Source of the DNA: an uncultured Blautia sp.
GTDB lineage: Bacteria; Bacillota; Clostridia; Lachnospirales; Lachnospiraceae
NCBI GenBank assembly: GCA_934378195.1
Contig: CAKRPO010000004.1
Location: forward strand, 38,593-102,592
Reading direction: 5' to 3'
Length of the DNA: 64,000 nucleotides
Shown here: positions 7,316 through 39,855 of the stretch, in pieces
How the letters are laid out: each line of letters opens with the position of its first letter
Numbering within the stretch: position 1 is the first letter of the stretch
Program-made: the position numbers and the translations under genes
Notes under the pieces: generated by a model
What the model was told of the DNA's origin: nothing
Seen by the model: only the letters and a program-made list of their open reading frames with translations
Database searches by the model: none

Positions 7316-7354
7316 CTGCTGCTCCTTCACATAAAACATTACTGTTCTCACAAA

Positions 7355-9884: not shown

Positions 9885-10056
9885 TATTAATTATTTATTG
9901 TCATATTACACGAATATTTGTCGAACGCTTTTTGTTGCGAACGATAACTACTTATGCTATCTTATATCCATAGCACATATCTGGATATCTGTGATATTTC
10001 TTTTAACAATCCCACTAAAGAGAACGATACTTAAACTATAAGAAAGGACCGTTTAT

Positions 10057-16406: not shown

Positions 16407-16440
16407 ATGCAGGGGCATTACCCCTGCATTCTTCATTTTT
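16407..16440 (+). terminator. Terminator between Rpn-like gene and capF
   Basis: Stem ATGCAGGGG / CCCCTGCAT, loop CATTA, then TCTTCATTTTT on the plus strand. It lies tail to tail between the Rpn-like gene and capF and could act in both directions, though the T-run favours plus. Confidence 0.65.
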
Positions 16441-17635: not shown

Positions 17636-17644
17636 ACGTTTCCC

Positions 17645-19854: not shown

Positions 19855-19899
19855 TGTCTTTTCTCCCTATCTGTAAGTTTTTTCCTTTTTATATCTTCT

Positions 19900-20815: not shown

Positions 20816-20857
20816 TTTTAATTACGCCTCCTATATTATATCTTTTTTGTTTTGTTT

Positions 20858-22318: not shown

Positions 22319-23312
22319 TTATAATCCTCTTTTCTAACAGAAATCTTTTTGCTTTTTGAACTATCCACAAAGTCAATACCGATAATAAAAAAACACACGC
22401 CCACTCAATCAAATAGAATAACGAAAAATCCATCTTATTTTTTACTATTCTAAAAAGCAAAATGTATATTGGATGTATTAAATATAATGTAAATGAATTC
22501 TTGCTTATGTATTCAATAAAAGAATTTTTAATGGCAGGTATATATCTAATCAGCAATAGCGTCACTGTCATCCCAAAAGACAGATAATGTAAATTAACCG
22601 GCCGTTTTCCTGTTGATGGCGAAAAAACAAAACCATTTTTATTAATTATACATGTAGCTATAAATACTAATAGCCAAACAATATATCCATACCTTTTCCA
22701 TTTCTCATTAACCTTCGCCCATATGCAATCCTGCATTACTATCAAATATGCCATACAACACATCAACCATTGATCTACCAAAATCCATCCAATATACGAT
22801 TCACCGATATAATTTATGTATAACATCTTCACAAAAGTATATATTGTAATTTCTATTGCAATAAATAATACAAATGAAACATTATTTTTAAATCGTGATA
22901 TTATTTTATTACATATCGGTCCCAGTAATGCATTAATAAAATATACTTTTACAATCCATACATATCCAATGCTATCCTCACACATCAAAAAAGAATTAAT
23001 CCACTGCTTGGGCGGGAATAAATCTAAACGTCCTATTAAATAATAAAGAAAAAACAGTGCCACTGAATATATAATTATAAATATATATGTCGGTTTTAAA
23101 AGTCTTTGTACCCTTTTTTTACAGTATAAATAATAGCTATGCCTATCTTCAATTCTTTCAAATGGAGCAACATATGCACTTAAATACACAAGTAGAATCA
23201 CATCAAATGATCGTAAATCATTTATAAATTTGGGAGCATCACAATGAGCCAAAATAATTAATAATATTCCTAGCACACGTAAACAATCTATTTTTGAATC
23301 TCTAGTCTTCAT
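22311..23312 (-). CDS. Acyltransferase family 3 membrane protein
   Basis: A 333-residue protein with about ten membrane segments and the family-3 opening (SKIDCLRVLGILLIILAHCD), where Arg and His are the conserved catalytic features. Such enzymes O-acetylate surface polysaccharides using acyl-CoA. Lying between wzy and wzx and overlapping both neighbours slightly, it presumably decorates this capsule. A role in receiving the acyl group handled by the ACP/adenylation pair of this operon is possible but unsupported. Confidence 0.85.
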   Translation of the reverse strand: MKTRDSKIDCLRVLGILLIILAHCDAPKFINDLRSFDVILLVYLSAYVAPFERIEDRHSYYLYCKKRVQRLLKPTYIFIIIYSVALFFLYYLIGRLDLFPPKQWINSFLMCEDSIGYVWIVKVYFINALLGPICNKIISRFKNNVSFVLFIAIEITIYTFVKMLYINYIGESYIGWILVDQWLMCCMAYLIVMQDCIWAKVNEKWKRYGYIVWLLVFIATCIINKNGFVFSPSTGKRPVNLHYLSFGMTVTLLLIRYIPAIKNSFIEYISKNSFTLYLIHPIYILLFRIVKNKMDFSLFYLIEWACVFLLSVLTLWIVQKAKRFLLEKRIISE

Positions 23313-24591
23313 AAATAACTTCCTTTTTTGTAAAAACTATGATAAAAAATAGCACAAAGAAAAAACTAACTGATATTCCATCCCATTTAAAAACAGTTCT
23401 ATATATTGAATACATCCAAAAAGCTTCTATAGCATGCCATCTTATCGTATTATTCCAATATGCCTTTTTATCTATATAATATGAAAAAATTGCAAGTAGA
23501 ATAGGTCCTATGACCAGTCCAAAATATCCCCAATCCATTAAAAATGGAAAAAAGACCGTTGACATAGCATTTAATTTTACATTTGCTCCAATAGTCAAAC
23601 TCCTACAAGCCAACGTACTGTTAATTATAAAGTCACTATTTATTAAAGAAAATCCGATTCTATTGAAGAACAATGCTACCAGATTCCATACAAAACCAAA
23701 ACTTGAAAATCCATATAAAAATGTCGTATTTATTTTATAAGTCAAAAGATTATCTAATAATTTTGATAAATATGCTGGACCACAAAAATAATATAAATAT
23801 GCAGTTCTAATTATGCTATCTCCTTCAGAACTTCTTTCATTGGATATCCACAAAAGAACACCCACACAAATAATAATGAGCAAACTCGTCATAATTTTTT
23901 CTTTTTTGGACAATACTTGTATTCTTTCTTTTCTTTGTACTCTATAATATTTTGCATAACATAATAAAAAGATAATCACTAAAACAATAAAGCCATTCCT
24001 TGCAGCATTTGTTAAACAATATAAAGTCAAATTTATAAAAGAAATTATTAGAAGTTTTCTAGATTCTTTTTCCCCTTGAAAAAGTACTATGCATCCGATA
24101 ATAAACGTAGCAATAATAGCCGGATAACAAAAAACTTGTAGTATCAAATTTGAAAGATTACTAGTTCCTATTTCTTGTGATTCGATTCCAGCTATCGATC
24201 TTAAATACATAAAACCTTCTGTTCTTATAATTACTAGCGCACGAATAAAAAAAGGTATTATATAAACAAAAACAAGTACATTTATTACATATACCATTCT
24301 ATATTTTATTTCACATTGCATCTCGCTAATATACTGTGCATTTATTTTTCTATTATGGGACAATGCAGAATATACTATAGCAAACAATAGTATTCCTAAA
24401 AACATGGCTATATTTACAATACCAGAAGGTAAATACACTCCATACAGTCCCATATTAGAGAATACTCCTGTAATTCCCCATATAAAACAAAATATACTTC
24501 CGCTATTTAAGTACGTTTTTGTCTGAATTCGGCACAAACACCCCCCAAAAAAACTTAAAATAGCGAATATGACTATCATAAATATATCCAT
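23302..24591 (-). CDS. wzy: Probable Wzy oligosaccharide repeat-unit polymerase
   Basis: A 429-residue, very hydrophobic protein with about 12 membrane segments and a large extracytoplasmic loop region (around FFIRALVIIRTEGFMYLRSI and SNERSSEGDSIIRTAYLYYF). Wzy proteins share little sequence. The call rests on topology, size, the O-antigen polymerase-like pattern and location beside wzx. It would join repeat units at the outer face of the membrane. Overlaps the acyltransferase start by 11 bases. Confidence 0.75.
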   Translation of the reverse strand: MDIFMIVIFAILSFFGGCLCRIQTKTYLNSGSIFCFIWGITGVFSNMGLYGVYLPSGIVNIAMFLGILLFAIVYSALSHNRKINAQYISEMQCEIKYRMVYVINVLVFVYIIPFFIRALVIIRTEGFMYLRSIAGIESQEIGTSNLSNLILQVFCYPAIIATFIIGCIVLFQGEKESRKLLIISFINLTLYCLTNAARNGFIVLVIIFLLCYAKYYRVQRKERIQVLSKKEKIMTSLLIIICVGVLLWISNERSSEGDSIIRTAYLYYFCGPAYLSKLLDNLLTYKINTTFLYGFSSFGFVWNLVALFFNRIGFSLINSDFIINSTLACRSLTIGANVKLNAMSTVFFPFLMDWGYFGLVIGPILLAIFSYYIDKKAYWNNTIRWHAIEAFWMYSIYRTVFKWDGISVSFFFVLFFIIVFTKKEVIYED

Positions 24592-24605
24592 ATCAACCTT
24601 CCTTA

Positions 24606-25499
24606 CTATCGCTTTCTCAAACCAGTTAAAACTAACAAATATTTCGTTATGCCATATATTAGTAATCTACATTTTTGTTTATATGGCATATATTTTCGTA
24701 CTTCATTGTATTTTTTAATTGCTTTCTTAAACTGACCAAATGCAATTTCTGTTTCAATAATATTGTAATTCCATATACACAATGCATCTAAATTCTCATT
24801 AAAATCAGTTTCATATTTTTTGATTAATCTTTCCCACCCTGTAATTCTTCCATTAATATTCGATGTAATAGCCACATCACTAACATAATAATGAACCAAA
24901 GCTTTATCCAAGTATTTTACCTTACACAGTTTAGAAATTCTTAACCATGCATCAATATCCTGTGCTGATGGCATGTTTTCATCAAATCCACCAGCTTCAC
25001 ATATAATGCTCTTACGAATAAGCGGTATAGAACAACCGCCTATAAAATTTCCATATAATAGTTTTTCATGTACGTTTCCATCATATGTTGTTGTCTTACT
25101 TCTCGGATACACTTTCCCGCTTTTTATATTATCGTAACTTGAATAAACTAATCCTACATCATCCGTCATAATTAAAATCATATCTGAAATTTTTGACGGC
25201 AGCCATTCATCATCATCATCTAATAATGCAACAAATTGACCATTAGCTAAGTCAATTCCCATATTTCTTGAGGCACAGGCTCCTGCCTTTCTAGTATTCA
25301 TAACATATCTTATGGGATACGAGCTATATTGCTTCAACATTTTTTCTATATTAGAATTTCCCGAAAAATTTGGCGCATCATTTACAATAATGACTTCAAT
25401 ATTTTTATAAGTTTGTTGTAAAACACTCCTCAATGCTCTTTCAATTATCTTTGCTTCTCTATGATGTGTTGTAATAATTGCTGTAACTAAATAATCCAT
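24606..25499 (-). CDS. Glycosyltransferase family 2
   Basis: A 297-residue GT-A enzyme: AIITTHHREAKIIERALRSV at the nucleotide-binding edge, ALLDDDDEWLPSKI as the DXD metal site, and AQDIDAWLRISK for the acceptor region. It adds one sugar to the lipid-linked repeat unit at the cytoplasmic face. Its start overlaps the stop of the adenylation gene by one base. The sugar specificity is unknown. Confidence 0.9.
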   Translation of the reverse strand: MDYLVTAIITTHHREAKIIERALRSVLQQTYKNIEVIIVNDAPNFSGNSNIEKMLKQYSSYPIRYVMNTRKAGACASRNMGIDLANGQFVALLDDDDEWLPSKISDMILIMTDDVGLVYSSYDNIKSGKVYPRSKTTTYDGNVHEKLLYGNFIGGCSIPLIRKSIICEAGGFDENMPSAQDIDAWLRISKLCKVKYLDKALVHYYVSDVAITSNINGRITGWERLIKKYETDFNENLDALCIWNYNIIETEIAFGQFKKAIKKYNEVRKYMPYKQKCRLLIYGITKYLLVLTGLRKR

Positions 25500-27025
25500 T
25501 ATTTTTTCTCCATAGACATCGTCTTCTCCTTTAACAATCTTCTATCAATTTTCCCATTAGCATTGTGTGGCATTTGTTCTAATCTATAATATTTACCTGG
25601 ATACATATATTTAGGTAAACTAGATCTTACTTTTTTTCCAATTATGCTTTTTAAATCTGCTTTAGCTTGATAAAAAAGAAGTATTTTTTTCTGTTTGCTA
25701 TCATATGTACAACAACATTCTTCTATTTCTGGAATAGAGCCTATTATTGTCTCTATTTCACTTAATTCAATTCTGAATCCCATATGCTTTATTTGAAAAT
25801 CTTTTCGACTTTTCCAAACAATGTTACCAGATTTGTCATAAGTGGCTATATCTCCTGTTTTATAAATAATTTCTCGATAATCTACTAACGGATTTTGGAC
25901 AAACACTTTGTCTGTCAAAGTTTTGTTCTTATAATATCCTAGTGAAAGTGTTTCTCCTGCCACACATATTTCACCCATTTCATTATCCGTTACCAATTTA
26001 TCATCTTCATTGAGTAAAAAGACTTTAACATTCGGAAATACTTTACCTGTCGGTAATCTGCTTTCATCATCAAGTATAGTATTATACTCATAAAACAAAA
26101 AATTGCCTGCAACTTCGGTTGAACCATATAAATTAATAAAGCGAGTATTTATCAAATTTCTTTTCCAATAATTTAATTGTTTTACTGGCATTTGCTCACC
26201 AACAAAAAATACTTTTCTAAGTCTTGATAAATAATTATTTCCATCTAATACTCCTGCATTAGCTACCAAAGTCAAAGCAGACGGTACCCACACAATAGTT
26301 GTTATTTTCTTATTTTCAATATACTCTACCAATGAAGTTGGAAATGAAAACATTTTTTTAGGTATGATATACGTTGTAATTCCACATTTTAAACATACAA
26401 ATATATCTTTTGTTGACGCATCAAAATAAAACGGAAACTGGTTTCCTAAAATTTCGTCACTAGTAAACTCAAACATTTCAACAAAACTGTCAATAAAAGA
26501 AATCAATGCTTGATGACTTTTTACAACCAACTTTGGTACACCTGTAGATCCTGATGTAAAAATACCATACATCGGATCAAAAGACCTGCTCTCACTTCTA
26601 ATTAAAGCAATTAACTCTCTATCTTCCTCTGATAATACTTCATTGTCAGTTGTACCATATTTAAAAATCACATTGCTATTATCTATATTCTCTTTCCCAT
26701 TTGAACAATCAATTACCCCTGCAAAATCCACTGATTCAATCATTAACTGAATGCGTTCTGTTGGTAAATCCGAATCAACTATCACATAATAATTTCCACT
26801 ATATAAACATGCAAACATACATATTAAAGTTTCAATACTTCTATCTGCAATAATACAAATAGGCTCATTTCTTACTCCTGATAACTTTTTTGCTAAATGT
26901 ACGCCTATTATCTGTGATTTTTCTTTTAAATCATTAAATGAAATGGAATCATTTTCACACACAAAAGCTGTTTTTTCAGGAGTTCGCAAAACTGTTTTTT
27001 CTAAATATTCTAAAATACTTTTCAT
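25499..27025 (-). CDS. Stand-alone amino-acid/acyl adenylation enzyme (NRPS A-domain/DltA type)
   Basis: A 508-residue member of the ANL superfamily with complete core motifs: IFTSGSTGVPKLVVKS (A3), NLYGSTEVAG (A5), YKTGDIATYD (A7), RKDFQIKHMGFRIEL (A8) and NGKIDRRLL (A10 lysine). It activates an amino or hydroxy acid as the acyl-AMP and would load it on the small carrier protein encoded 31 bp upstream. Size and organisation resemble DltA. In a capsule operon this implies aminoacyl or acyl decoration of a sugar. The substrate pocket code was not resolved. Confidence 0.85.
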   Translation of the reverse strand: MKSILEYLEKTVLRTPEKTAFVCENDSISFNDLKEKSQIIGVHLAKKLSGVRNEPICIIADRSIETLICMFACLYSGNYYVIVDSDLPTERIQLMIESVDFAGVIDCSNGKENIDNSNVIFKYGTTDNEVLSEEDRELIALIRSESRSFDPMYGIFTSGSTGVPKLVVKSHQALISFIDSFVEMFEFTSDEILGNQFPFYFDASTKDIFVCLKCGITTYIIPKKMFSFPTSLVEYIENKKITTIVWVPSALTLVANAGVLDGNNYLSRLRKVFFVGEQMPVKQLNYWKRNLINTRFINLYGSTEVAGNFLFYEYNTILDDESRLPTGKVFPNVKVFLLNEDDKLVTDNEMGEICVAGETLSLGYYKNKTLTDKVFVQNPLVDYREIIYKTGDIATYDKSGNIVWKSRKDFQIKHMGFRIELSEIETIIGSIPEIEECCCTYDSKQKKILLFYQAKADLKSIIGKKVRSSLPKYMYPGKYYRLEQMPHNANGKIDRRLLKEKTMSMEKK

Positions 27026-27056
27026 AGTGCAAACCTTTCATCTTTTCCACATTCTA

Positions 27057-27281
27057 TTAATTATATTTTGAGATTAATTCAAGCATATTATCTATTGAAT
27101 TAAAGTTGTCTCCCTTTATCTCATCAAATCCGATTTCTATGTCAAATTCTTCACATATGCTGTCTAAGATTGTTGCAATATCTAAAGAATCAAAAAGCCC
27201 CTGATCTACAAAATCTGTTTCCGTTTCAAAATCAATCTCCGGTCTAACTTCTTCTAATATTTTTAATAATTTTTTCTTCAT
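27057..27281 (-). CDS. Acyl/peptidyl carrier protein
   Basis: A 74-residue acidic carrier protein. DQGLFDSLDIATIL is the phosphopantetheine attachment helix (Ser in FDSLD). Followed by the adenylation gene and preceded by a GT4 gene with a 4-bp gap. It most likely carries the aminoacyl or acyl group activated by the adenylation enzyme, as DltC does for D-alanine. Confidence 0.88.
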   Translation of the reverse strand: MKKKLLKILEEVRPEIDFETETDFVDQGLFDSLDIATILDSICEEFDIEIGFDEIKGDNFNSIDNMLELISKYN

Positions 27282-27285
27282 TTTT

Positions 27286-28491
27286 TTATTCTCCTTTTAA
27301 TATTGTTTTATATAAATTAATGTATTCTAAAAATCTTTCATTACGATCAAATTTTAATGCTCTTTTTCTGCAAGCCTCTCTACTACTATCAATTTGTTTT
27401 GCTGCTGTATATAACAAATCGACATTTCCCTTCTCCACTACAGCACCACATTCATCATCAATTATTTCTGGACTTCCCCCAGTTTTGTATGTAACTACAG
27501 GTGTTCCACATGCTAAGGATTCTATATTAACTGTTGGAAATGTATCTTCATAGGTCAAATTGATAAAAACATCAGCAATTGAATACCAGCTAGCTAACTC
27601 TGAAACACTCTTTGTATGTGTAACTGCAAAAATCCCATGTTTTTGCAATTCATTTTTCTGCGTCTCATTTACACCAACAACAACTATCTGTTCTTTACTC
27701 TTATCTATCTTTTTGGCTAATTTTATTAAGTCATCATAACCCTTTTTAGCTGTCCATACACTCGCTACAGCTAAAAATATCTTCTTATTATTAAAACCTT
27801 TTTCTTCTTTTAAATCACTTGTTATATAATGAAAACTTTCCAAATCAATTCCATTGTTAATAACTATACATTTTTTATCAGAAAGAATGGATTGATTTAC
27901 CAAATCTTTTAACCATACTGACGGGGTTACAATCGTAATATTTTTCATACCTTCATATATTTTCTTTTTTTCTTCATAGTTTTTACACGAATTATCAAAA
28001 AGAATACTTTTGGGGTATGTCGAAATATGCTGACATTTCTCACATTTTACTTTCCACTTATCACACTTAGCATATTCAAAATGTGAACAATGCCCTGTAA
28101 TAGCCCAACAATCATGTAACGTCCAAACTACAGGTATATTTGTTCTTATTAAATAATTAAAGAACATTCTCATATTTAAATAATATCCATGTACATTATT
28201 AATATGAATGATATCCGGCTGATAAGAATCTATCCATTCAAGTAGTTCTTTTGTTGCTTGTTTAGATCCGTATGCATGTTTATCAAATAATCTTGTAAGC
28301 ATGACATGCCTTGCAATTTCACTTTTCTTTCCAAACATAAAACATTCATCTTTATGTTCTGCTGGAATAAATCCTCTGGAGAAAGCGAATTTTCCTTCTG
28401 AGTCATTTTGCTTCAATAAATCGCAAATTGAAAAAACAATTCTACTTATCCCTCCGTTTTCACATTGAGAATGCAAAAATAAAACTTTCAT
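27286..28491 (-). CDS. Glycosyltransferase family 4
   Basis: A 401-residue GT-B enzyme starting at MKVLFLHSQCENGGISRIVF (28491, GGAAGGA upstream, two bases after the preceding stop). The subfamily shows HDCWAITGHCSHF with a cluster of cysteines (about residues 125-150), and the C-terminal donor site has ESLACGTPVVTYKTGGSPEI. It is a retaining transferase for the capsule repeat unit. A reading five codons longer has no better signal. Confidence 0.88.
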   Translation of the reverse strand: MKVLFLHSQCENGGISRIVFSICDLLKQNDSEGKFAFSRGFIPAEHKDECFMFGKKSEIARHVMLTRLFDKHAYGSKQATKELLEWIDSYQPDIIHINNVHGYYLNMRMFFNYLIRTNIPVVWTLHDCWAITGHCSHFEYAKCDKWKVKCEKCQHISTYPKSILFDNSCKNYEEKKKIYEGMKNITIVTPSVWLKDLVNQSILSDKKCIVINNGIDLESFHYITSDLKEEKGFNNKKIFLAVASVWTAKKGYDDLIKLAKKIDKSKEQIVVVGVNETQKNELQKHGIFAVTHTKSVSELASWYSIADVFINLTYEDTFPTVNIESLACGTPVVTYKTGGSPEIIDDECGAVVEKGNVDLLYTAAKQIDSSREACRKRALKFDRNERFLEYINLYKTILKGE

Positions 28492-28493
28492 AA

Positions 28494-29420
28494 TTAATCC
28501 TTCCAATATTTCTTTGGTATTCTATATCTAATTCTTCCTTTTTCAGCCTCTGCCATTACATATTCCATTAACTTTTTAGAGCTTTTTGTATATCCAATAT
28601 TCACTCCACCTACAACTGTTTCAGTCATAAAACCAAGCCTTTTCAGTTTTCCATTAAAATTATAGCAAGTATTATATCTAACCCAAAAACCCCTTGCTAC
28701 TTTAATCGTTTTTTCAATAGTACCTTCTGAAGTTTTAATTTTATATGTCAACGTATCATACCACTCTTTAATAGGCCATTTATCTCCTAATCGATCATCT
28801 GCCGTATGCAAAACCGTATTACATTCAGCTATACTCACACCTAAATATAAAATCTTTGCATCGTGATCCACACAATATGCCCACGCTGAGTTATTTCCAT
28901 GTGGAACCTCATCTAATAAATTATTTTTCATCATATCCTTCGCATGTGCGCCTACTGCTGCTAATGTATTATAAGGAAATAAACTTCGCTCTACACCATC
29001 ATATGTTAGAAACGTATTTGGTAATGTTCCCGTCCAACAAAGTGTTCTTTTAGGGTTATACGTCTGAATCTTCCCAGGTACATTCTTCAAATTAATTATT
29101 GGAAACGCAGGAAAAACTAATGTTCCCTCTTTCCCCACTAGATTTAATAAATAATCAATAATTTCCTTCGCATCTGGATCAGCTGTTTTCATTCCATCAA
29201 AGCTTGAATGAACAAGTAAAATATCTCCTTTTTTTATACCTAATGAATCCAAATAAGAAAATATTAATTTCATATTGTTCCTATCTGCCTTAACTTTTTC
29301 ACCCTTATGCAAAAAAATTTTATGATATAATTCTTTTAATTGATTAGAGTTAACACTATAAGCCAATCTCTTACTCAGTAGTTCTGCCATTCCACTTATT
29401 TCAAATAATCTCTTTAACAT
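28494..29420 (-). CDS. AAC(3)-fold N-acetyltransferase, probably sugar-modifying
   Basis: A 308-residue member of the antibiotic N3-acetyltransferase fold: ILLVHSSFDGM, FPAFPIINLKN, SLFPYNTLAAVGAHA and VPHGNNSAWAYCV. Classical AAC(3) enzymes acetylate aminoglycosides, but homologues occur in polysaccharide loci where they acylate amino sugars. Located between glycosyltransferases in the capsule operon, this is very probably not a resistance gene. With an ACP and an adenylation enzyme just downstream, it is the best local candidate to move the activated acyl group onto an amino sugar; this is inference. Confidence 0.75.
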   Translation of the reverse strand: MLKRLFEISGMAELLSKRLAYSVNSNQLKELYHKIFLHKGEKVKADRNNMKLIFSYLDSLGIKKGDILLVHSSFDGMKTADPDAKEIIDYLLNLVGKEGTLVFPAFPIINLKNVPGKIQTYNPKRTLCWTGTLPNTFLTYDGVERSLFPYNTLAAVGAHAKDMMKNNLLDEVPHGNNSAWAYCVDHDAKILYLGVSIAECNTVLHTADDRLGDKWPIKEWYDTLTYKIKTSEGTIEKTIKVARGFWVRYNTCYNFNGKLKRLGFMTETVVGGVNIGYTKSSKKLMEYVMAEAEKGRIRYRIPKKYWKD

Positions 29421-30481
29421 ATTTCATCCTCATCTAAATAAAAAGTTTGTGCATGCCCAGGGTAAACTGCCTGAGTAGTAAAATAAACTGTTTGTGTTTC
29501 ATTATATGGAAATAATACATTTCCAAACTGCATTAGCCACATTGGCCAAATGTCCTTTTTAAGCTTTTTACATTCTTTAATAGTGCCATCTTCATCAATC
29601 AGAATTATATGTGAATATCTATCTTTAATTCCTTTTCCAAGTTTAGATGTAATACGATATCTCCAAGATGGCAATGAACTATCTGGTTCAACCGTAGTTG
29701 ACAAATAATATCTATTTCCTATTGAAGTTCCATAAATACAAGATCCCGGTATCTCACAGACACGTTCTACACTTGCATCTGAGCCCTTCTTTATTGATAC
29801 TCTATAAATATGATTTGTTTCTAATGGTGTATCTGTTGCATAGTATAAATAATCATTACTTATAAAAGCTACGCATGACCGATACTGCTGTTTTCCTTTT
29901 ATTAACACTTGTACTTTCTTAAATTCTCTGTCAGCAACCCATATTCCAGATTCATTATCTTCATCACCTGTTAAAATATAAAACAAATCATGTAAGTCAT
30001 CATAAATAATGTTATGAATGTGTGTTATACTATTTGCAGGAAATTCAAATATTTTACTCCATTCTCCATCTTTTCTTTTATAAATGGCTACTGGTCCTTT
30101 CTCAGTATTCCAAATATATTCACCATAATATATTTCTTTTTCCCCTGACTTTAATGTTACAATGCAAAATGATAACGGATTATTCATTCCTTTTTCAAAT
30201 CTATGTTCTTCAATTAAAGAATTAGAAACTGTACTGTAATGTAAAATTTTCCCTTTAAATGAAATCAAGAAATTTTCATTATCCAATGCAATTGCACATC
30301 GAGGTTCCGATCTTAACAAGCGTGCTAATGCATTAATTTTTCCGCATAATCCTTGAATTTTCACCTGTTTAATAACCTTTTCGGGTTCATTTAAATTGCA
30401 AAAGAGTAAATATCCTTTTTTATATATAAGCAAGTTATTTTTTGTTGCACATAAAAGCTTTCCATCTAAAAATTTTTTCAT
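29414..30481 (-). CDS. Unrecognised capsule-locus protein, possible beta-propeller
   Basis: A 355-residue soluble protein without signal peptide or membrane helix. It has recurrent short beta-rich stretches with aromatic and glycine ends (LLIYKKGYLLFCNLNEPEK, EIYYGEYIWNTEKGPVAIYK, LFYILTGDEDNESGIWVADR, YYLSTTVEPDSSLPSW), which suggests a propeller or BNR-like fold. I cannot name a family. It overlaps both neighbouring genes by four to seven bases, so it is an integral part of the operon. It may be a transferase partner or a sugar-binding factor. Confidence 0.7.
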   Translation of the reverse strand: MKKFLDGKLLCATKNNLLIYKKGYLLFCNLNEPEKVIKQVKIQGLCGKINALARLLRSEPRCAIALDNENFLISFKGKILHYSTVSNSLIEEHRFEKGMNNPLSFCIVTLKSGEKEIYYGEYIWNTEKGPVAIYKRKDGEWSKIFEFPANSITHIHNIIYDDLHDLFYILTGDEDNESGIWVADREFKKVQVLIKGKQQYRSCVAFISNDYLYYATDTPLETNHIYRVSIKKGSDASVERVCEIPGSCIYGTSIGNRYYLSTTVEPDSSLPSWRYRITSKLGKGIKDRYSHIILIDEDGTIKECKKLKKDIWPMWLMQFGNVLFPYNETQTVYFTTQAVYPGHAQTFYLDEDEIC

Positions 30482-31695
30482 TTATCTTCACCGTAATGCT
30501 TAATGATTTTTTCGTAACTTATTCCTACTGAATAATTAGTAATTAAATAATGATATCCTTTACTTCCCATTTCCTTTAAATCGCTATTAGTAATTTCACA
30601 GACTTTGCTATTAAAGCTATTTATACTATTACTTTCACACCACCACCCAAATTTGCCATTTACAATTTCACTTCCAACATCAGTATTTTTATCAGTAACT
30701 GCTAAAACTGGAATTTTCGCCTGCATATAACTCAATAAACGACTTGGAAAATTGGGAATTGTAAATCTATGATCAAGAAAAATCATTCCAACATCACAAG
30801 CGCCGACCATTTTATCATAATCCTCTTTAGGAAGACGTTTCATAAGTTTTACATTTTTCGGTTTATCATTTTTTATATATGCCTGAATCTTGTGAAATTC
30901 TGTACCATCTCCAACAATCAGAAAAAAAGCATCTTCATTATTTTCTTGGCTTCTCAAACACTCAATCATAAACTCTATCCCCTGAGGTTTTCCAAGATTT
31001 CCGCCATATACAAAAACTTTTTTATTTATCGGAATACCATATTTACTTCTTATATCCTTTCGGATTTTTTCATCAACGCTCATATCAATGACTTCTACAC
31101 TATTAGGACAAATTTCCACTTTATCCAAGGAAACTTCACGATTATGTTTTACAACATAATTCACGTTTGCTTGACTCATGCATCCTATAAAGTCCGAAAT
31201 CCTATATAATTTCTTTTCTTTATTTCTAAATATTTTATAAATTATTCCTTTTATACCTGTCTTGGATATCATTTCAATATCTACCGCATTCTGCGGAAAA
31301 ATATCCTTGAGAAGAAGATATGTTTTTGCCCCATCTCTTTTTTTCACAAATTCAATTGCATTGCAAAAAGTAATCGGAGGAGTAGAGTAAATTACTAAAT
31401 CAAATTTTACATTAGAAAAATACTTTTTAATACCTGCAATAAATTGAGGCTCAATACTTACTGTAGATATTCCCTTTTCAATAATATTCGTTTTCTGTGT
31501 ATTCCCGATTTTTAATTTCAAAATGGTAGCATTATTCGTTTTGATAATCTTAGTATCAATTTTTTTTCTTCTTTCTACTGGAGAAATTACAAACAATCTA
31601 TGTCCATGTTTTGCAAACTCACGCAGCAAATCTGTATATATATTTTTTTCATCAATTGAGTTAAAATCTAATAATGTGAGGAACAAAACATTCAT
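30478..31695 (-). CDS. Glycosyltransferase family 4, WbuB-like
   Basis: A 405-residue GT-B enzyme (MNVLFLTLLDFNSIDEKNIY opening; PPITFCNAIEFVKKRDGAKT; LLLKDIFPQNAVDIEM; FVYGGNLGKPQGIEF; FPSRLLSYMQAKIPVLAV). The LKDIFPQNAVD segment is typical of WbuB/CapM-like transferases that use N-acetylfucosamine, fitting the capE-G-F pathway in this operon. It probably adds L-FucNAc as second sugar, but specificity cannot be proved from sequence. Four-base overlap with the next gene. Confidence 0.8.
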   Translation of the reverse strand: MNVLFLTLLDFNSIDEKNIYTDLLREFAKHGHRLFVISPVERRKKIDTKIIKTNNATILKLKIGNTQKTNIIEKGISTVSIEPQFIAGIKKYFSNVKFDLVIYSTPPITFCNAIEFVKKRDGAKTYLLLKDIFPQNAVDIEMISKTGIKGIIYKIFRNKEKKLYRISDFIGCMSQANVNYVVKHNREVSLDKVEICPNSVEVIDMSVDEKIRKDIRSKYGIPINKKVFVYGGNLGKPQGIEFMIECLRSQENNEDAFFLIVGDGTEFHKIQAYIKNDKPKNVKLMKRLPKEDYDKMVGACDVGMIFLDHRFTIPNFPSRLLSYMQAKIPVLAVTDKNTDVGSEIVNGKFGWWCESNSINSFNSKVCEITNSDLKEMGSKGYHYLITNYSVGISYEKIIKHYGEDK

Positions 31696-31712
31696 TTCTA
31701 TTCTCTCCTATC

Positions 31713-32306
31713 CTATTTTTTTCTTGCAGGCACTCCTATATAAGTTCCTGCCTCATTTATATCTTTTACAACGGTAGCTCCTGCACCTATCAAACATCCA
31801 GAACAGATACTTATATTATTACTTATAGTGACTCCTGCACCTATCCAAGTTCCATCGCCAATTTCAACTGTCCCCGCTACATGTGAACCAACAGAAACAT
31901 GTGCATAATTTCCTATCCTGCAATCATGATCTACACTTGAACCTGTATTTATAATGCAGCCTTTTCCGATAACCACATCTGAATTAATAACAGCTCCTGC
32001 CATCACAACTGATCCTATTCCAATCCGAACTCTTCTACTTATAATTGCTCCCGGATGAATGAGTGTAATCACATTATCCAATTCTGATTGTATTTTTTCT
32101 CTTATTTTGGCATTTCCAATCGCAACAATCTTATCCCCTGCCATTTTTTTTGCATCATTTGTTCTTCCAATCACAGGGAAACCAGCACATTCTTTAATTT
32201 CTTCATTATCATCTAAGAAAAAAATATTATCATAATCATTTTTCACAGCAATATCTGCTATTACTTTTCCATGCCCACTAGCACCAATAATAATTAGTTT
32301 TTTCAA
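31713..32306 (-). CDS. pglD: PglD-type UDP-amino-sugar N-acetyltransferase
   Basis: A 197-residue protein. Start taken as TTG at 32306: GGAGG lies eight bases upstream and it overlaps the pglC stop (TTGA). The N-terminal 75 residues form a Rossmann-like domain (KLIIIGASGHGKVIADIAV), the rest a left-handed beta helix of hexapeptide repeats (VVMAGAVINSDVVIGKGCII, SVDHDCRIGNYAHV with the catalytic His). It acetylates the 4-amino group to give UDP-diacetylbacillosamine. Directly downstream of pglC, pglE and pglF. Confidence 0.9.
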   Translation of the reverse strand: MKKLIIIGASGHGKVIADIAVKNDYDNIFFLDDNEEIKECAGFPVIGRTNDAKKMAGDKIVAIGNAKIREKIQSELDNVITLIHPGAIISRRVRIGIGSVVMAGAVINSDVVIGKGCIINTGSSVDHDCRIGNYAHVSVGSHVAGTVEIGDGTWIGAGVTISNNISICSGCLIGAGATVVKDINEAGTYIGVPARKK

Positions 32307-32941
32307 TGCGGTGCCCTCCAATTAGCTTCTACTCCTTCTGGTGTTCCCATAAAAGGCTCCATAGTCACAGAAGTTTCAGAACTAATACCATCTCTTTTTA
32401 TGACGGTCATAATAGTATCCCAAATAATTTTCAAGTCTCCAATAAAAGTAATATGTGTTGTGTACCATACATCCATTGCGAACTTATCTTCCCAGGAAAC
32501 TGTATTTCTTCCATGCGCTTGAGCATATCCTGTTAATCCCGGTCTTACATCATGCCTATGACGTTGAAATTCGTTATATCTAGGCAAATATGCAACGAGC
32601 AATGGCCTTGGCCCTATAAGGCTCATATCGCCTTTTAGGATATTAGCCAATTCAGGCAATTCATCAAGAGAAGATGCCCGTAAAAAACGTCCATATTTAT
32701 TTAATCTGACTTCATCTGGTAATAAATTTCCTTTTTTATCTTTTCGATTATCCATTGTCCGAAACTTTATTAACTTGAAAATCTTTTCATTTTTTCCCGG
32801 ACGTTCCTGTGTAAAAAATGGATTACCTCTCATAAACACAGTCCCTAGTATTATCAGAATCACCAAAAGAGGCGAAAGGATAATTAACGCTATTAAGCTC
32901 AATGAAAAGTCTATTAATCGCTTAAAGTACTTTGCATACAT
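32303..32941 (-). CDS. pglC: Initiating phosphoglycosyl transferase, PglC type
   Basis: A 212-residue monotopic enzyme with one N-terminal re-entrant helix (FKRLIDFSLSLIALIILSPL) and the catalytic core (FRTMDNRKDKKGN; SLDELPELANILKGDMSLIG; GPRPLLVAYLPRYN; RPGLTGYAQAHGRN). It transfers the first phospho-sugar, here probably diacetylbacillosamine, onto undecaprenyl phosphate. This starts synthesis of the repeat unit. Length matches short PglC rather than the long WbaP form. Confidence 0.92.
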   Translation of the reverse strand: MYAKYFKRLIDFSLSLIALIILSPLLVILIILGTVFMRGNPFFTQERPGKNEKIFKLIKFRTMDNRKDKKGNLLPDEVRLNKYGRFLRASSLDELPELANILKGDMSLIGPRPLLVAYLPRYNEFQRHRHDVRPGLTGYAQAHGRNTVSWEDKFAMDVWYTTHITFIGDLKIIWDTIMTVIKRDGISSETSVTMEPFMGTPEGVEANWRAPH

Positions 32942-32971
32942 ATTACTTCTCCATATATTTGTTTCAATTGA

Positions 32972-34255
32972 TTATTCAAAGCAGGCTTTTATTACTTCAA
33001 TAATTCTATCCTGCTGCTCTGCTGTCATTTTATTATCGCTTGGCAGGCATAATCCTCTTGTAAAAATGTCCATTCCTACATCAGCCACCCCACCTGCAAT
33101 ATAAGCATTCGATCTGGCCCGTCCATTTCCATCTCTAACAACAAACGAATTTAAACGATAAATCGGCTGCATATGCATTGGCTTCCAGATTGGTCTTCCC
33201 TCTGCATTAATAGATGCAACCGCTTCCAAAATCTCTGTCGGGCAAGACTTTCCTGTTTCTTTCACATAACATACATCCTGCTCACCACGAACCTGCTTGC
33301 ACATTGCCTCCTTATCAATAATCAGACAAGACAGCCAGTAATTTGGTTCAGAATTTTCCAGATCCATTGGGTTCATAGATACTGGCAGTCCTTTTAAGCC
33401 CTCTTTATATCTCTCATAAATTGCTTTCTTCTGCGCAATATGTTCATTCAGATAAGGGAACTGTCCACGAACAACGCCTGCAACAACATTACTCATGCGG
33501 TAGTTGTATCCCAGTTCTTCATGCTGATACCATGCTGCATTTTCTCTTGCCTGGGTAGACCACTTGCGCACTTTATTTGCAGCTTCTTCATCATCAGTCA
33601 GGAAACATCCACCTGAACTTCCTGTAATGATTTTGTTTCCATTAAAAGAGATCGTATTATATTTTCCAAATGTTCCTGTCTGAACACCTTTGTATGTAGC
33701 ACCCATAGATTCTGCAGCATCCTCAACGAGAATTGCTCCATGTTTTTTTATAATTGCATTCAACTCGTTAATCTTTCCCGGTGTACCATAAAGATGAGCT
33801 ATTACTACTACTTTTGTATCTGGATAAATTTCAAAAGCCTTTTCCAAAGCTACCGGATCCATATTCCATGTATCGTATTCTGTATCAATGAATACCGGTT
33901 CTCCACCTTCATACACGATTGGATTAACAGTCGCATCAAATGTCATATCTGAACAAAATACTTTTTTACCTTCTAATGCACCATGCCCTACCTTTGGCAT
34001 TCCATATGCTTTAATTCCGGCTAACTTCATAGATAAGTGTAAAGATGCTGTTCCAGCTGACAATGCAACCGCATGTTTGCAGCCGATATATTCACATGCC
34101 ATTCTTTCTACTTCATTGATATTCTTACCAACTGTGGACATCCAGTTCGTTTCATACGCTTCTTTCACATATTCGATTTCCAGGCCATGCATAGTCGGAC
34201 TGCTCAGCCAAACCTTTGATTCAAATTTTTCAAAATTATTGTTTTCTTTAAACAT
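32972..34255 (-). CDS. pglE: PLP-dependent aminotransferase, PglE/DegT type
   Basis: A 427-residue DegT/DnrJ/EryC1 enzyme. AVALSAGTASLHLSMKLAGI binds the cofactor phosphate, VEDAAESMGATYKGV is the conserved Asp region, and the catalytic Lys is in SFNGNKIITGSSGG. It aminates C4 of the UDP-4-keto sugar made by PglF. Gene order pglF-pglE-pglC-pglD supports this role over other sugar aminotransferases. Confidence 0.9.
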   Translation of the reverse strand: MFKENNNFEKFESKVWLSSPTMHGLEIEYVKEAYETNWMSTVGKNINEVERMACEYIGCKHAVALSAGTASLHLSMKLAGIKAYGMPKVGHGALEGKKVFCSDMTFDATVNPIVYEGGEPVFIDTEYDTWNMDPVALEKAFEIYPDTKVVVIAHLYGTPGKINELNAIIKKHGAILVEDAAESMGATYKGVQTGTFGKYNTISFNGNKIITGSSGGCFLTDDEEAANKVRKWSTQARENAAWYQHEELGYNYRMSNVVAGVVRGQFPYLNEHIAQKKAIYERYKEGLKGLPVSMNPMDLENSEPNYWLSCLIIDKEAMCKQVRGEQDVCYVKETGKSCPTEILEAVASINAEGRPIWKPMHMQPIYRLNSFVVRDGNGRARSNAYIAGGVADVGMDIFTRGLCLPSDNKMTAEQQDRIIEVIKACFE

Positions 34256-34298: not shown

Positions 34299-36236
34299 TT
34301 ATGCAATCTCTTTATTTACCTCTTCTGGTGTCTTAAATGTTGGTACAACACTTCTGAGAGCTTCTTTTGCAATCAAATCATCACCTGTATCACAGGCATC
34401 CCTAAGAACTTTAATTTTTTTATAAATCTCTTCTTTATTTAAAGCTGTATCTCTTTCGATAAAAATCATGCTATTATCGGTTTTATCCAGTTCCTCTGTT
34501 TTAACCAATAATTCCTCATACAGTTTTTCTCCCGGTCTTAATCCCGTTTCAATAATTTCAATTCCCTGAACGCCAGATAAACGAATCATATTCTCTGCCA
34601 GATCCATAATCTTAACTGGCTGTCCCATATCCAGAACAAATAATTCTCCATTGTTTGCAATCGCTCCACTCTGAAGAACAAGCTGTGATGCTTCCGGAAT
34701 TGTCATGAAATATCTGATGATTCTCTTATCGGTAACTGTGACAGGACCGCCGTTAGCAATCTGACGTTTAAACAACGGAATAACTGATCCTGCACTACCC
34801 AGTACATTCCCAAATCGTGTAGCACTGTATTTTACTTTGCCATGTGTACTTGCACTCTGCACGATCATTTCGCACATTCTCTTTGTCGCACCCATAACGT
34901 TGGTTGGATTGACTGCTTTATCTGTGGACACCATCATAAAGCGTTCTGCCCCATATTCCTCGCAAAGTTCCACCAGATTCTGTGTACCAAATACATTGTT
35001 ATAAATAGCCTCCACACAGTTATGCTCCATTAACGGCACATGTTTGTGAGCTGCAGCATTGATAATGATCTGCGGATGATATTTCTCAAATACACGTTCA
35101 AGTGCTTTTCTGTGAGTAATAGAGCAAATTTCAATCTGTAAATCTAAGCTATTTCCATATGCTATTTTCAATTCCTGCTGAACGTCATAAGCTCCATTCT
35201 CATAAATATCCAGGATAATAATTTTCTTTGGCTGCATTTTTGCTAACTGTCTGCAAAGCTCTGAGCCAATGGAACCGCCACCACCAGTAATAAGTACTAC
35301 CTTGTCTTTGTAATAGGCATTTGTTCTTTCATCAGAAACCACTAATGGTTTTCTAAACAAAAGTTCTTCAATATCAAACTCTCTAAGATGCCTCTTTCCA
35401 CCTGCGGTATACACAGTCGGGTAATCATATACTTTCAATTTATATCCAGCATCTTTGTAATAATCATAAAGTGCCTTCTTTTTCTTAGCGTCCATTGATG
35501 GGATTGCAAAAATAATTTCCTGTACCTCAAATTCTCCCAAACGCTTAAATGTCGCTTGATCTTCCGACCATACAGGAATACCATGTATATCTCGTCCAAC
35601 TTTTTCTCTATTAATGTCAATGAAACATCTTGGTATATATGCTGCTTCCGCATTATTCAGAAGTTCTTCTGCCAAGCTCACACCAACCCGTCCAGCACCG
35701 ATAATTGCAACTTTAATCTTCTGTACTTCCTTTTCACTTCCTGCTTCAATTCCAGAAAATATATGTAATAATATAGAAAGAAACTTTCCTCTTACAGTTT
35801 CCTGATTTCCACATTTGTACGCATAGCGATACATCATGCGAAGTGCCAAGGCTCCTAAAAAGTTTAAACTAACCAATGAAAGCAATCTAGCAAATGTAAT
35901 TTTTTGAACTGGAAGTAATAATTCCAGACACAGATAGACTATAAAAGCAATAGAATCGGTAAACAGCAGTCGAATATAACATTGTATTCCACCGTATCTC
36001 CACACCTGTCCATAGATTTTCCCCAAGAAGCGTGTTCCAAAAATACATATCACCGATATACAAACTTGCTGAAGCATTCCTACCGGTGTTAATTTGTCCA
36101 TGCCTCCATAAATTCCCAAAAGTATAACTGCTGCCACTGCATATACAACCAAGTCATACCATACAAGCATCCAGCGTATATTCCATAAGTTATTTACATT
36201 ATGCGATACTGGCTTTTTTTCATTTGTTCTAACCAT
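34299..36236 (-). CDS. pglF: Membrane UDP-GlcNAc 4,6-dehydratase, PglF/CapD type
   Basis: A 645-residue protein: four N-terminal membrane helices (residues ~20-130), a CoA-binding-like Rossmann domain (KVAIIGAGRVGVSLAEELLN), then the catalytic SDR domain (VLITGGGGSIGSELCRQLAK; NAAAHKHVPLMEHN; STDKAVNPTNVMGATKR, with the MxxxK active site of this family). It makes the UDP-4-keto-6-deoxy sugar for PglE. Length and architecture are standard. Confidence 0.93.
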   Translation of the reverse strand: MVRTNEKKPVSHNVNNLWNIRWMLVWYDLVVYAVAAVILLGIYGGMDKLTPVGMLQQVCISVICIFGTRFLGKIYGQVWRYGGIQCYIRLLFTDSIAFIVYLCLELLLPVQKITFARLLSLVSLNFLGALALRMMYRYAYKCGNQETVRGKFLSILLHIFSGIEAGSEKEVQKIKVAIIGAGRVGVSLAEELLNNAEAAYIPRCFIDINREKVGRDIHGIPVWSEDQATFKRLGEFEVQEIIFAIPSMDAKKKKALYDYYKDAGYKLKVYDYPTVYTAGGKRHLREFDIEELLFRKPLVVSDERTNAYYKDKVVLITGGGGSIGSELCRQLAKMQPKKIIILDIYENGAYDVQQELKIAYGNSLDLQIEICSITHRKALERVFEKYHPQIIINAAAHKHVPLMEHNCVEAIYNNVFGTQNLVELCEEYGAERFMMVSTDKAVNPTNVMGATKRMCEMIVQSASTHGKVKYSATRFGNVLGSAGSVIPLFKRQIANGGPVTVTDKRIIRYFMTIPEASQLVLQSGAIANNGELFVLDMGQPVKIMDLAENMIRLSGVQGIEIIETGLRPGEKLYEELLVKTEELDKTDNSMIFIERDTALNKEEIYKKIKVLRDACDTGDDLIAKEALRSVVPTFKTPEEVNKEIA

Positions 36237-36266: not shown

Positions 36267-37502
36267 TTAATCTCTTCCATACAAATCTCTTGTATAAACT
36301 TTATCTTTTACATCATCCAAGCTACTATCATATCTATTTGCAATGATTGCATGGCTCATGGATTTGAACTTTTCAAAGTCATTTACTACTTTGCTTCCAA
36401 AGAATGTGCTTCCATCCTCCAGTGTTGGCTCATAGATTACTACGACTGCGCCTTTGGCTTTCACTCGTTTCATAACACCCTGAATGCTGCTCTGGCGGAA
36501 GTTATCGGAATTGCTCTTCATTGTCAGACGATATACGCCAATGATGCATTCTTTCTCTTCATCTGCTGAAAAATCGCCTCGATTGAAGTAATCGTAGTAT
36601 CCGGCCATGGAAAGTACTCGATCAGCAATAAAATCTTTTCTGGTTCGGTTGCTCTCTACGATTGCAGACATCATATTTTGCGGAACGTCCGCATAGTTTG
36701 CCAGAAGCTGCTTTGTATCTTTCGGCAGACAATAACCGCCATATCCGAAGGATGGATTGTTGTAATGTGTTCCGATTCGTGGATCCAGGCACACACCATT
36801 GATGATGTCCTGTGTGTTCAGCCCTTTTGACTCTGCATAAGTATCCAGTTCATTGAAATAAGATACACGAAGTGCCAGATAGGTATTGGCAAAGAGTTTC
36901 ACTGCCTCTGCCTCGGTAAATCCCATGAATAATGTATCGATGTTTTCTTTAATTGCACCTTCCTGAAGAAGTCCTGCAAAGATTTCTGCCTTTTCACGGG
37001 TAGTTTCATTGCAGCTTACGATAATTCGGCTCGGATACAGGTTGTCATACAGTGCCTTGGATTCACGAAGAAATTCCGGGCTGAAAATAATCTTGTCCGT
37101 GTTATATTTCTTTCTGACGGATTCTGTGTACCCTACGGGAATCGTACTTTTAATAATCATGACAGCTTCCGGATTCACACTCATTACCAGTTCAATGACT
37201 GCTTCAACTGCTGATGTATCGAAGAAGTTCTTTTTACTGTCATAGTTGGTCGGTGCTGCAATGATAACAAATTCTGCATCTTTATATGCATTTGCTCCAT
37301 CTGTTGTTGCTGTAAGATTCAGTTCTTTTTCTGCCAAGTATTTCTCAATGTATTCATCCTGAATCGGGCTTTTTTTGTTGTTGATCAGTTCAACTTTTTC
37401 AGGAATGATATCTACGGCTGTTACCTGATTTTTCTGAGCCAATAGAACTGCAAGTGATAAACCAACATATCCTGTTCCTGCAATTGCTATTATTCTGTTC
37501 AT
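36267..37502 (-). CDS. ugd: UDP-glucose 6-dehydrogenase family enzyme
   Basis: A 411-residue nucleotide-sugar dehydrogenase starting at [20 protein letters not shown] (37502; AGGTGAG upstream, in preference to a GTG four codons earlier). Key parts are [10 protein letters not shown], the helix [19 protein letters not shown], the catalytic Cys in [14 protein letters not shown] and a C-terminal NAD-sugar domain. It oxidises a UDP-hexose, usually UDP-glucose, to the uronic acid. First gene of the capsule operon, implying that the polymer contains a uronic acid. The next gene upstream is the TnpB-like gene, in the same direction. Confidence 0.92.
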
Positions 37503-37699
37503 AACATATCTCACCTTTTTCTTAATAATTTATATAAACACACCAATAGCCCACTTCACCCTTCCAGGCTCCGCAGGCTAATGCAATTTATCTTTTTTTC
37601 TGTTCTCTATCTTTCTTTTTCATTCTCATCTTCCATTCAGAATCCGGGCTGGTGTTTTGCAACCCACAACCGTCCGGGCAAATAAATCTGTTTTCTGTG

Positions 37700-37885
37700 T
37701 CTGATGTTTCCTTTTCTTTTATAACTTCGAGTACTCTCGCGGCTTCCTTCGGAAGTCACTGTCTTTGCGGGGTCCTCGTGGACTCCGGCGGGCGGCACTC
37801 TGCCCGAAAGCGGCACCCTGTAGATGCGGCTCTCCTGGTGATTTCTCACTCATATATTCAAAGCAGCAAAATCTGCTTTAATACC
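37700..37885 (-). ncRNA. Candidate guide-RNA scaffold downstream of the TnpB-like gene
   Basis: Directly after the stop of the TnpB-like gene the minus strand has no plausible gene but a chain of hairpins. These include AAAGCAG-N6-CTGCTTT; CCG-CTTT-CGG; GTCC-ACGA-GGAC; CTTCC-GAA-GGAAG; and CGAG-AGTA-CTCG, before an A-rich end (AAGTTATAAAAGAAAAGGAAAC). It is far more GC-rich than the DNA on either side. TnpB and Cas12f guide RNAs are encoded in this position, overlapping or following the 3' end, with the guide at the RNA 3' end, here beginning somewhere below about 37710. Exact ends and guide are unknown. Confidence 0.5.
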
Positions 37886-39082
37886 TTATTGATCTGTCTT
37901 GTTTTCTCTGAAGCTGTCCAGGCATTTCTGACCAAGGTTCTGTGCCATATTCAGATATCTGCTGCCGCGATGACCGTTTTCGCACTGGAAATCTGCACCT
38001 TTTCGGCGGATTTTTGCTCCGCAGCGGCTACATACAGAACCTGTATTATGCTGTTGAACTTCCAAAACAACGATGCCTTCCTGCCATGCCTTGTACTTGA
38101 GTTTCTCGCGAATGGACGGAACCAGACGGAGAGGGGAATGTTTCCCAACGCTTGCCATGACAATATTTCCATAATCTTTGTTGTATTCCGGCAAGACCAG
38201 TACACTGGCATTCTGCTCTTTGCAGTAATCAATGATCTGTCGGCTGAACTGATGTGCATAATGGTCATGAAGATTTTTCAGTTTTTTCCAGTAGCGGTAA
38301 TTGGCTTTTGCATTGCCTCCGCCTCCATGGACCTGCTCGGACCGTTTGATCCGGTCGTAGATCTGTCGGCTGGCATTGGCATATTCTCGGCCTCCCTTTA
38401 TATAGAAGGAACTCTCCCGTTTGCCGGAAGAATCGAGAATGCAGCACACTGCGCATGCATCCTGACCGGTAAAAACTGTCGAACATATTTTATTTTCTGC
38501 TGTAAGGCGTTCACGGGCGCCGCGCCCGTCTGCCACTGGTATCTTCCATGGGATATGAAGTTCTGCGTGATCTGACTTCAAAACCAGTGCCGGGGACATC
38601 ATTTGTCCTTCTTCCGGAACGGTGTTTCCGCGGAGACGCAGTCTGGACCATTGCCAGGCTTCTCCATCCCAAAGCTTCAAAGAAATCGTATTTTCCTGAA
38701 AATCGCGGTACATTCCTTTGTAGAATGTTACCGATTCTGTGAAAGTCTCTGTCGGCTGTTCCTGCTGCTCCCTTGCCAGGTAGCTTTTGGCTGCTGCCGT
38801 GGCTGTGTTGATGGCTGCCCTTCGGAAATAAAGGGGAATCTTCTTCCACGGTAAGGGATTGGGTACCGACTGTTTGTCGCGGCCAACGACCGTCAGCTTC
38901 TCCAGAATGCGGAGTGCTTCCTGGGTGCCGGGCTGTTTGTCCGGAAAAGTTTCCAGATACAGCTGGTAGTAAAAAAGCAGGATTTCGTTGTAGAGGTCCT
39001 GTGTCTGGTGGAACCACTCTGTGTGTCGGAACAGGACATTGTATCTCCTGACTGTGATCGCATAGTACGGCATTTTTTCCAT
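37886..39082 (-). CDS. TnpB-like protein lacking RuvC catalytic residues (candidate RNA-guided regulator)
   Basis: A 398-residue protein from the ATG at 39082 (GAGGTG seven bases upstream). The N-terminus YYAITVRRYNVLFRHTEWFH and overall layout fit TnpB/OrfB of IS200/IS605 elements. The C-terminal zinc finger is C351-x2-C354 ... C367-x3-H371, with His in place of the last Cys. By hand alignment RuvC-I reads STVFTGQDACAV where TnpB has GIDLG, so Asp is Phe204. RuvC-III reads SRYLNMAQNLG where TnpB has DxNAAxN, so Asp is Tyr376. Only a Glu near RuvC-II (LVLPEY, E299) remains. The frame is otherwise intact, with a consensus promoter, so it looks maintained rather than decayed. No tnpA is nearby. 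This resembles TldR-type exapted TnpB repressors. Confidence 0.75.
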   Translation of the reverse strand: MEKMPYYAITVRRYNVLFRHTEWFHQTQDLYNEILLFYYQLYLETFPDKQPGTQEALRILEKLTVVGRDKQSVPNPLPWKKIPLYFRRAAINTATAAAKSYLAREQQEQPTETFTESVTFYKGMYRDFQENTISLKLWDGEAWQWSRLRLRGNTVPEEGQMMSPALVLKSDHAELHIPWKIPVADGRGARERLTAENKICSTVFTGQDACAVCCILDSSGKRESSFYIKGGREYANASRQIYDRIKRSEQVHGGGGNAKANYRYWKKLKNLHDHYAHQFSRQIIDYCKEQNASVLVLPEYNKDYGNIVMASVGKHSPLRLVPSIREKLKYKAWQEGIVVLEVQQHNTGSVCSRCGAKIRRKGADFQCENGHRGSRYLNMAQNLGQKCLDSFRENKTDQ

Positions 39083-39127: not shown

Positions 39128-39163
39128 TCCACTGATTATAGGATATTCTTTATCCTATGTCAA
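39128..39163 (-). promoter_or_regulatory. Consensus sigma-A promoter with embedded palindrome, upstream of the TnpB-like gene
   Basis: On the minus strand TTGACA (39158-39163), 17-base spacer, TATAAT (39135-39140): a perfect match to consensus. The spacer and -10 contain the inverted repeat ATAGGATA-N5-TATCCTAT (39138-39158), a likely repressor site. The predicted transcript has a leader of about 45 bases before the ATG at 39082. Confidence 0.85.
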
Positions 39164-39739: not shown

Positions 39740-39855
39740 ACTGATAACCATTATTATGCCAACCAAAGAATTATCGGTGGGTGTGCCCCTTCCCACATTT
39801 CTTTTGACCCGTAGGGTGCGTAGCAGCACAATCTCTACTTCAATAATTCCTTAAA

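Follow-up and report, generated by a model that had tools for sequence, protein, structure and literature searches.

A TnpB-like protein without a functional nuclease site leads a capsule operon in the DNA studied here, a stretch of 64,000 nucleotides from an uncultured Blautia sp. (referred to as the window). We lean towards the reading that it is an exapted, cleavage-dead TnpB which, as the first cistron of this operon, forms a ribonucleoprotein (RNP) with an RNA of the operon's leader and regulates the transcription of its own operon in cis. The features of the locus are given in Table 1.

Table 1. Features of the dead-TnpB locus and the capsule operon in the window
Feature	Position	Strand	Remark
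Possible regulator of the dead-TnpB locus: divergent XRE-type HTH protein, 107 aa	39364..39687	+	Pfam HTH_3 E 4.8e-10; putative role
Promoter TTGACA-17-TATAAT, facing the dead-TnpB gene	39135..39163	minus	12/12 consensus
Palindrome ATAGGATA-N5-TATCCTAT inside the promoter, possible operator	39138..39158	.	read from sequence; putative function
Nuclease-dead TnpB-like protein, TldR-like	37886..39082	minus	398 aa
Conserved structured RNA element with covarying helices and pseudoknot, inside the operon leader, directly 3' of the gene	37721..37855	minus	
3' end of the element, GAAGTTAT; following sequence differs between operons	37721..37728	minus	
UDP-glucose dehydrogenase, the operon's first sugar gene, 372 nt past the dead-TnpB stop	36267..37514	minus	
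Polysaccharide biosynthesis dehydratase (Polysacc_synt_2)	34299..36236	minus	
DegT aminotransferase, bacterial sugar transferase, PglD/hexapeptide acetyltransferase, glycosyltransferase	30478..34255	minus	
Other capsule genes: glycosyltransferases, acyltransferases, flippase, Polysacc_synt_2, Epimerase_2, Polysacc_synt_C	16439..30481	minus	

A TnpB family without RuvC aspartates

Computation establishes for this family the loss of the RuvC aspartates from an intact fold with zinc finger, purifying selection, and polysaccharide genes downstream. The initial annotation had proposed a nuclease-dead TnpB homologue with an intact frame, in which fold and zinc finger are kept, and these points held: the TnpB/Cas12f fold of the window protein is complete and its zinc finger intact, and the Asp of RuvC-I and that of RuvC-III are absent. 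This is a family-wide trait, as neither residue occurs in any of 179 aligned relatives, whereas the catalytic triad is kept in all eight TnpBs from IS-like copies of the same genus. For 11 pairs of dead-TnpB genes omega ranges from 0.065 to 0.196, which indicates purifying selection; a twelfth pair, formed with the window, was saturated, and several dS values among the pairs exceed 1. The helix motif PLYFRRAAIN is invariant in 26 rows of the dead family and similar in active relatives (PSYLRRAAI in the active TnpBs of the genus against PLYFRRAAI in the dead family). In TnpB, this helix reads the target-adjacent motif. Its conservation speaks for a nucleic acid binding that the dead family would have retained.

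A related-locus search gave 39 dead-TnpB loci and genome searches added further ones; with the window included and the duplicates L034 and L101 excluded, 59 distinct instances were collected. Their spread is patchy: 15 of 64 genomes were positive in the genus search (E <= 1e-40), 6 of 250 in the family sample and 1 of 245 in the class sample, this being the centre genome G001 itself. Neither phages nor viral contigs gave a match to the dead TnpB, and plasmids yielded distant TnpBs only, in four plasmids.

The homologues are not in the main ordinary active IS copies, the outcome that would have spoken against the initial annotation; they lack the RuvC aspartates and have polysaccharide genes behind them. 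Active TnpBs of the genus measure about 442-451 aa (L083, L097, L121-L140) and share the N-terminal part, about 24-258 of the profile. The eight that were compared keep VDLG, FEYLE or FEYLD, and CDLS, in contrast to the dead family with its missing aspartates. Zinc ligands are absent from these eight rows (among L083 and L121-L140) and the triad is present, the mirror image of the dead family. A single genome, G068, gave 24 TnpB matches, fragments and general TnpBs included. The conserved right end of the active IS copies, behind the gene, is the hairpin GAAGC..GTGAGG-TTCAC; the left end starts near TTGAATAA. An IS200-type tnpA was seen by eye just upstream in L082; among the 26 window proteins scanned there is no member of a tnpA family.

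A group of fusion proteins was also observed. In 21 of the 120 homologues listed (P0015, P0016, P0019-P0036 and P0042) the first ~275 residues are fused in frame to a C-terminal part resembling dTDP-glucose dehydratase, and one of these, P0024, occurs in 27 contigs, one of them of 3.8 Mb (Blautia obeum). P0039 joins the N-terminal part of the dead TnpB to a UDP-glucose dehydrogenase. The joint lies at KKLKNL(HEH) in P0015, P0024, P0039 and also in P0013, which has another partner. These fusions look like a recurrent deletion at one spot within capsule loci.

Polysaccharide genes downstream and promoters upstream

A survey of the gene neighbourhood, which the initial annotation had suggested, shows that the dead TnpB is in stable genetic linkage with non-transposon genes, namely polysaccharide operons. 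In 53 of the 59 loci the next 2.5 kb contain a same-strand gene of at least 150 aa, at a median gap of 362 nt. Among the six loci without such a gene, L001, L038, L015 and L029 have at most 1.3 kb of contig left, and in L033 and L037 a gene on the opposite strand faces the dead TnpB. Sugar or polysaccharide families account for the first downstream gene in 43 of 53 cases (Pfam, proteins scanned singly), including epimerases, Polysacc_synt_2, sugar transferases, glycosyltransferases, fucose pyrophosphorylase, UDP-glucose dehydrogenase, DegT, nucleotidyltransferases, Wzz, FdtA and GLF; L023 is counted with CoA_binding_3 only. The first downstream gene belongs to DUF4422, a capsule-linked family, in two loci (L010, L107) and to NusG in another two (L024, L039; Pfam), three have no Pfam family (L018, L020, L021), and three are of other kinds (BglII-like in L111, thymidylate kinase in L119, AAA-ATPase-like for one L117 copy). 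No ECF sigma factor gene is found among these 53 genes. In L004 a NusG/LoaP-like gene was noticed by eye after the dead TnpB in the same operon. The nearest upstream genes are mixed, with tyrosine recombinases commonest (10 of 50 scanned) and AAA-ATPase_like next (4 of 50), as judged from 25 of 91 families listed. The alignment scans comprised 52 of the 53 downstream proteins (all except the AAA-ATPase-like one of L117) and 50 of 54 upstream proteins (all except those of the window, L102, L020 and one of L117).

Many of the relatives are phase-variable capsule loci with an invertible promoter, of which both orientations are seen. Perfect inverted repeats of at least 15 nt lie upstream in 40 of 57 loci, compared with 16 of 799 windows taken from these loci as controls; the scan reached up to 1.9 kb upstream with a spacing of 60-1600 nt, and the two further loci start at a contig edge. 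The repeat arms are often palindromic themselves, e.g. GTCGCTTATCATTTTCATAAGCGAC in L116, and palindromic sites are typical of tyrosine recombinases. Inversion is directly visible between L010 and L107, one capsule locus in two genomes, where ~1.45 kb holding the recombinase are inverted between colinear flanks, and between L112 and L115, two loci of genome G022, which differ by an inverted 371-nt segment at 97% identity. Promoter direction was checked in 20 of the 40 invertible segments: the best promoter-like site points towards the dead-TnpB gene in 7 and away from it in 12, and L019 has none.

In the window the promoter is fixed, and the search for an inverton gave imperfect repeats only. 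The consensus promoter named in the initial annotation was recovered with all twelve positions matching. Since an inverted repeat is missing, the perfect promoter contains a palindrome and an XRE gene lies divergently, the window locus is probably controlled by the XRE protein, which together with the operator would serve as the switch in place of an inverton. Past the XRE gene, a skipping-rope RNA (RF02924, 58.3 bits) is found at 39769-39848 on the minus strand. Elsewhere in the window, two small membrane proteins of 191 and 199 aa (6776-7351 and 9098-9697), nearly alike by eye, flank two genes; this pair is a local duplication, again as judged by eye.

Structured RNA behind the gene and candidate guides

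Computation also shows that in many loci the dead-TnpB gene is followed by an RNA whose helices covary and whose 3' end is sharply defined. The terminal sequence GAAGTTAT is present in exact form in 32 of 59 flanks, at +40 to +520, against an average of 0.99 in shuffles. For window positions 37700-37880 the minimum free energy has a z of -3.7. In alignment A5 (14 loci) 16 of 33 pairs are changed on both sides and 93.9% of cells are paired; the corresponding values in A4 (8 loci including the window) are 21 of 34 and 95.2%, and controls with slid partners pair 32-52% (A5, A4). The covariation scores were reached by none of 500 shuffles, and the number of further pair types by 2 and 6 of 500. 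In A5, the loop of the hairpin GGGT-TGAATACC-GCCT pairs with GTATTY directly before GAAGTTAT, which gives a pseudoknot at the 3' end. Its helix varies between the two sets (GAGCAC/GTGCTT, GAACAC/GTGTTT), and most of its pairs vary little in A5, where 1 of 6 is changed on both sides (A4: 3 of 6).

A covariance model, R1, finds the window RNA with E 3.7e-5, a rough value for a sequence outside the training set. At E<0.01, with E again rough, it gives 35 matches in 34 of 58 sources, each just behind a dead-TnpB gene, and 21 of these lie outside the 14 training loci. Many distant members are missed by R1, e.g. the E. callanderi loci L016, L017, L019 and L022. At L117, where two dead-TnpB genes stand in tandem with an AAA-ATPase-like gene in between, R1 matches the RNA behind both. 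L038 has a second, partial match (9918-10005, E 0.023) about 1 kb past the first and truncated where the contig ends. Neither a conserved terminator nor a target-adjacent motif was recognised next to the element; a run of T follows it in only a few loci. R1, which was built on the dead family, has no match in 20 active-IS loci, so that descent from the IS RNA is not established by sequence; position and layout suggest a common descent of the two RNAs.

What follows the element often changes abruptly. Of 16 locus pairs compared, 8 lose their homology 2-12 nt past GAAGTTAT: L104/L108 +11, L112/L115 +5, L012/L039 +4, L024/L039 +12 (later blocks present), L116/L119 +2, L117/L118 +10, L117/L105 +2 and L014/L018 +10. 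It runs on where the operon is the same (L010/L107, L106/L011), and further pairs have homology past the element of 222 nt (L012/L024), 105 nt (L002/L023), 24 nt (L023/L004) or more (L018/L020). Also among the 16 pairs, L001 ends with the contig and the element was not located in L016/L017. Such a module, with its sharp end and free sequence behind it, would be the picture of a scaffold with a guide.

The search for targets of such guides gave no signal above chance. This holds for 43 elements whose 16 nt past GAAGTTAT were compared with their own and sister loci, and a permutation test of 42 loci against promoter and downstream regions gave p 0.29-0.97. The best non-self matches cover 11-15 of 16 positions, and those of 15 lie in A-rich or homologous leader sequence except for L020 to L021. 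In this outlier, the best single candidate for a target in trans, the L020 guide recurs with its first 14 nt at 7786-7799 of L021 behind TTGAT, the motif read by ISDra2 TnpB; the site is not near the start of any dead-TnpB gene, and overall there is no excess above chance. For 31 guides, the prefix match averages 9.71 nt in sister loci and 9.88 nt in loci of other genomes, and the one in sister loci is longer for 14 of 31. Genome-wide, the 20-mers of L105, L103 and L104 find in their own genome only themselves and at most one site with three mismatches. The AT-rich L010 guide has, at up to three mismatches, 11 matches in G001 and 15 in G023, self included; because 4 matches each are obtained with reversed controls, and 9 in G002, a genome without this guide, we read these matches as an effect of composition. 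The idea that GAAGTTAT is a guide seed and has its conserved target in the promoter was rejected, upstream copies being single and confined to L023 and L120. The window contains a second copy of GAAGTTAT downstream, besides that of the leader. From the initial view of the protein as a TldR, the dead RuvC, the polysaccharide link and, by addition, a covarying RNA at the position of a guide RNA remain; repression through a guide RNA found no support, and since no guide target was found, membership in the TldRs is unproven.

Proposed action and comparison with known systems

In the mechanism we propose, the protein would bind the structured RNA encoded directly behind its gene. This RNA would act as a guide-RNA-like scaffold and is at the same time part of the operon's own leader. 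The resulting RNP might stay on the nascent transcript in an antitermination-like manner, or might land on its own DNA behind GAAGTTAT and throttle elongation; the effect on the operon could have either sign. Action in cis is favoured because in 8 of 16 pairs the sequence past GAAGTTAT changes along with the operon, and action on the own operon because there is no second guide site above chance. A special form, conceivable if rather doubtful, is that the dead TnpB takes its own operon's leader as the guide RNA, with GAAGTTAT ending the scaffold and, as DNA, providing the target-adjacent motif. Any operon behind GAAGTTAT would then automatically be guide and target, and the regulator of each capsule locus would address only itself, whatever the sequence of the cassette.

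Classical TldR action in trans, in which the sequence after the scaffold guides repression of other capsule loci or surface genes and leads to mutual exclusion between the loci of one genome, we regard as possible and on the improbable side. The route of exaptation would be that of TldRs, several genomes hold multiple copies (8 in G006; 4 each in G003, G005, G007, G022 and G044), the L020/L021 site would be a case in point, and according to PMC13418256 the csrA-TldRs found in gut bacteria occur at several loci, with guides that target across loci and with promoter inversions. However, half of the 16 pairs differ in the guide region as they do in the operon, sister loci are matched no further than loci of other genomes by the 31 guides, and the L105, L103 and L104 guides yielded genome-wide, apart from themselves, at most one imperfect site in the own genome; trans action may still proceed via short guides (6-9 nt) or on targets in other cells. 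It is unlikely that the two components are separate devices, the RNA an ordinary cis-acting leader of riboswitch or antiterminator type and the protein active elsewhere. The location of the RNA in the leader of sugar genes and the lack of R1 matches in active IS loci would agree with this, but wherever R1 matches (E<0.01), the RNA directly follows a dead-TnpB stop, and it has a 3' pseudoknot just before the sharp boundary, as TnpB guide RNAs do.

The break of homology at the element end in 8 of 16 pairs, and the proteins in which the first ~275 residues are fused in frame to capsule enzymes, could also mean that capsule cassettes are exchanged with this module as their left boundary and that the protein aids their recombination or capture. 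We consider this quite unlikely for a protein that has no catalytic site and has a tyrosine recombinase as nearest upstream neighbour in only 10 of 50 scanned cases. Very improbable is a decaying IS relic hitchhiking with capsule loci: some copies are truncated or contain a stop (L008, L020 and others), but the low omega, the residues invariant throughout the family and the conserved RNA largely refute it.

Our preferred reading, the RNP acting in cis on its own operon, has its closest precedent in the TldRs of PMC13418256, a paper that describes such proteins of gut bacteria at fliC and csrA, together with hin genes and inversions of promoters; at csrA-TldRs an invertase gene and a promoter inversion likewise lie upstream. 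Common to both are the TnpB fold, the dead RuvC and a stable link to genes for surface structures, and the RNA beside the gene may be scaffold-like here too. Different from TldRs, the dead TnpB adjoins a polysaccharide operon, the RNA lies in the leader of this neighbouring operon, no guide target was found, and the inversion goes with tyrosine recombinases instead of Hin. Unlike with AsCas12f/dCas12f, an incidental view of the dead-TnpB loci brought up no CRISPR array or sigma factor gene.

If our reading is true, it adds another case in which a nuclease of transposons was domesticated as a gene regulator, in this instance one for the switching of capsules in gut Firmicutes, and offers a named, testable protein and RNA for the phase-variable polysaccharides of Lachnospiraceae. 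To our knowledge, there is no earlier case with the RNA partner in the leader of the controlled operon. Titles and abstract beginnings in the open-licence PMC literature contained no description of a capsule-linked TnpB or of a Lachnospiraceae equivalent of Bacteroides UpxY/UpxZ. The position itself is similar to that of UpxY/UpxZ and of LoaP/RfaH, as the gene is the first past the invertible promoter and precedes a leader and a long polysaccharide operon. Whereas these are NusG-type or small proteins, the protein that leads the capsule operon here has no NusG domain (Pfam) and is a TnpB.
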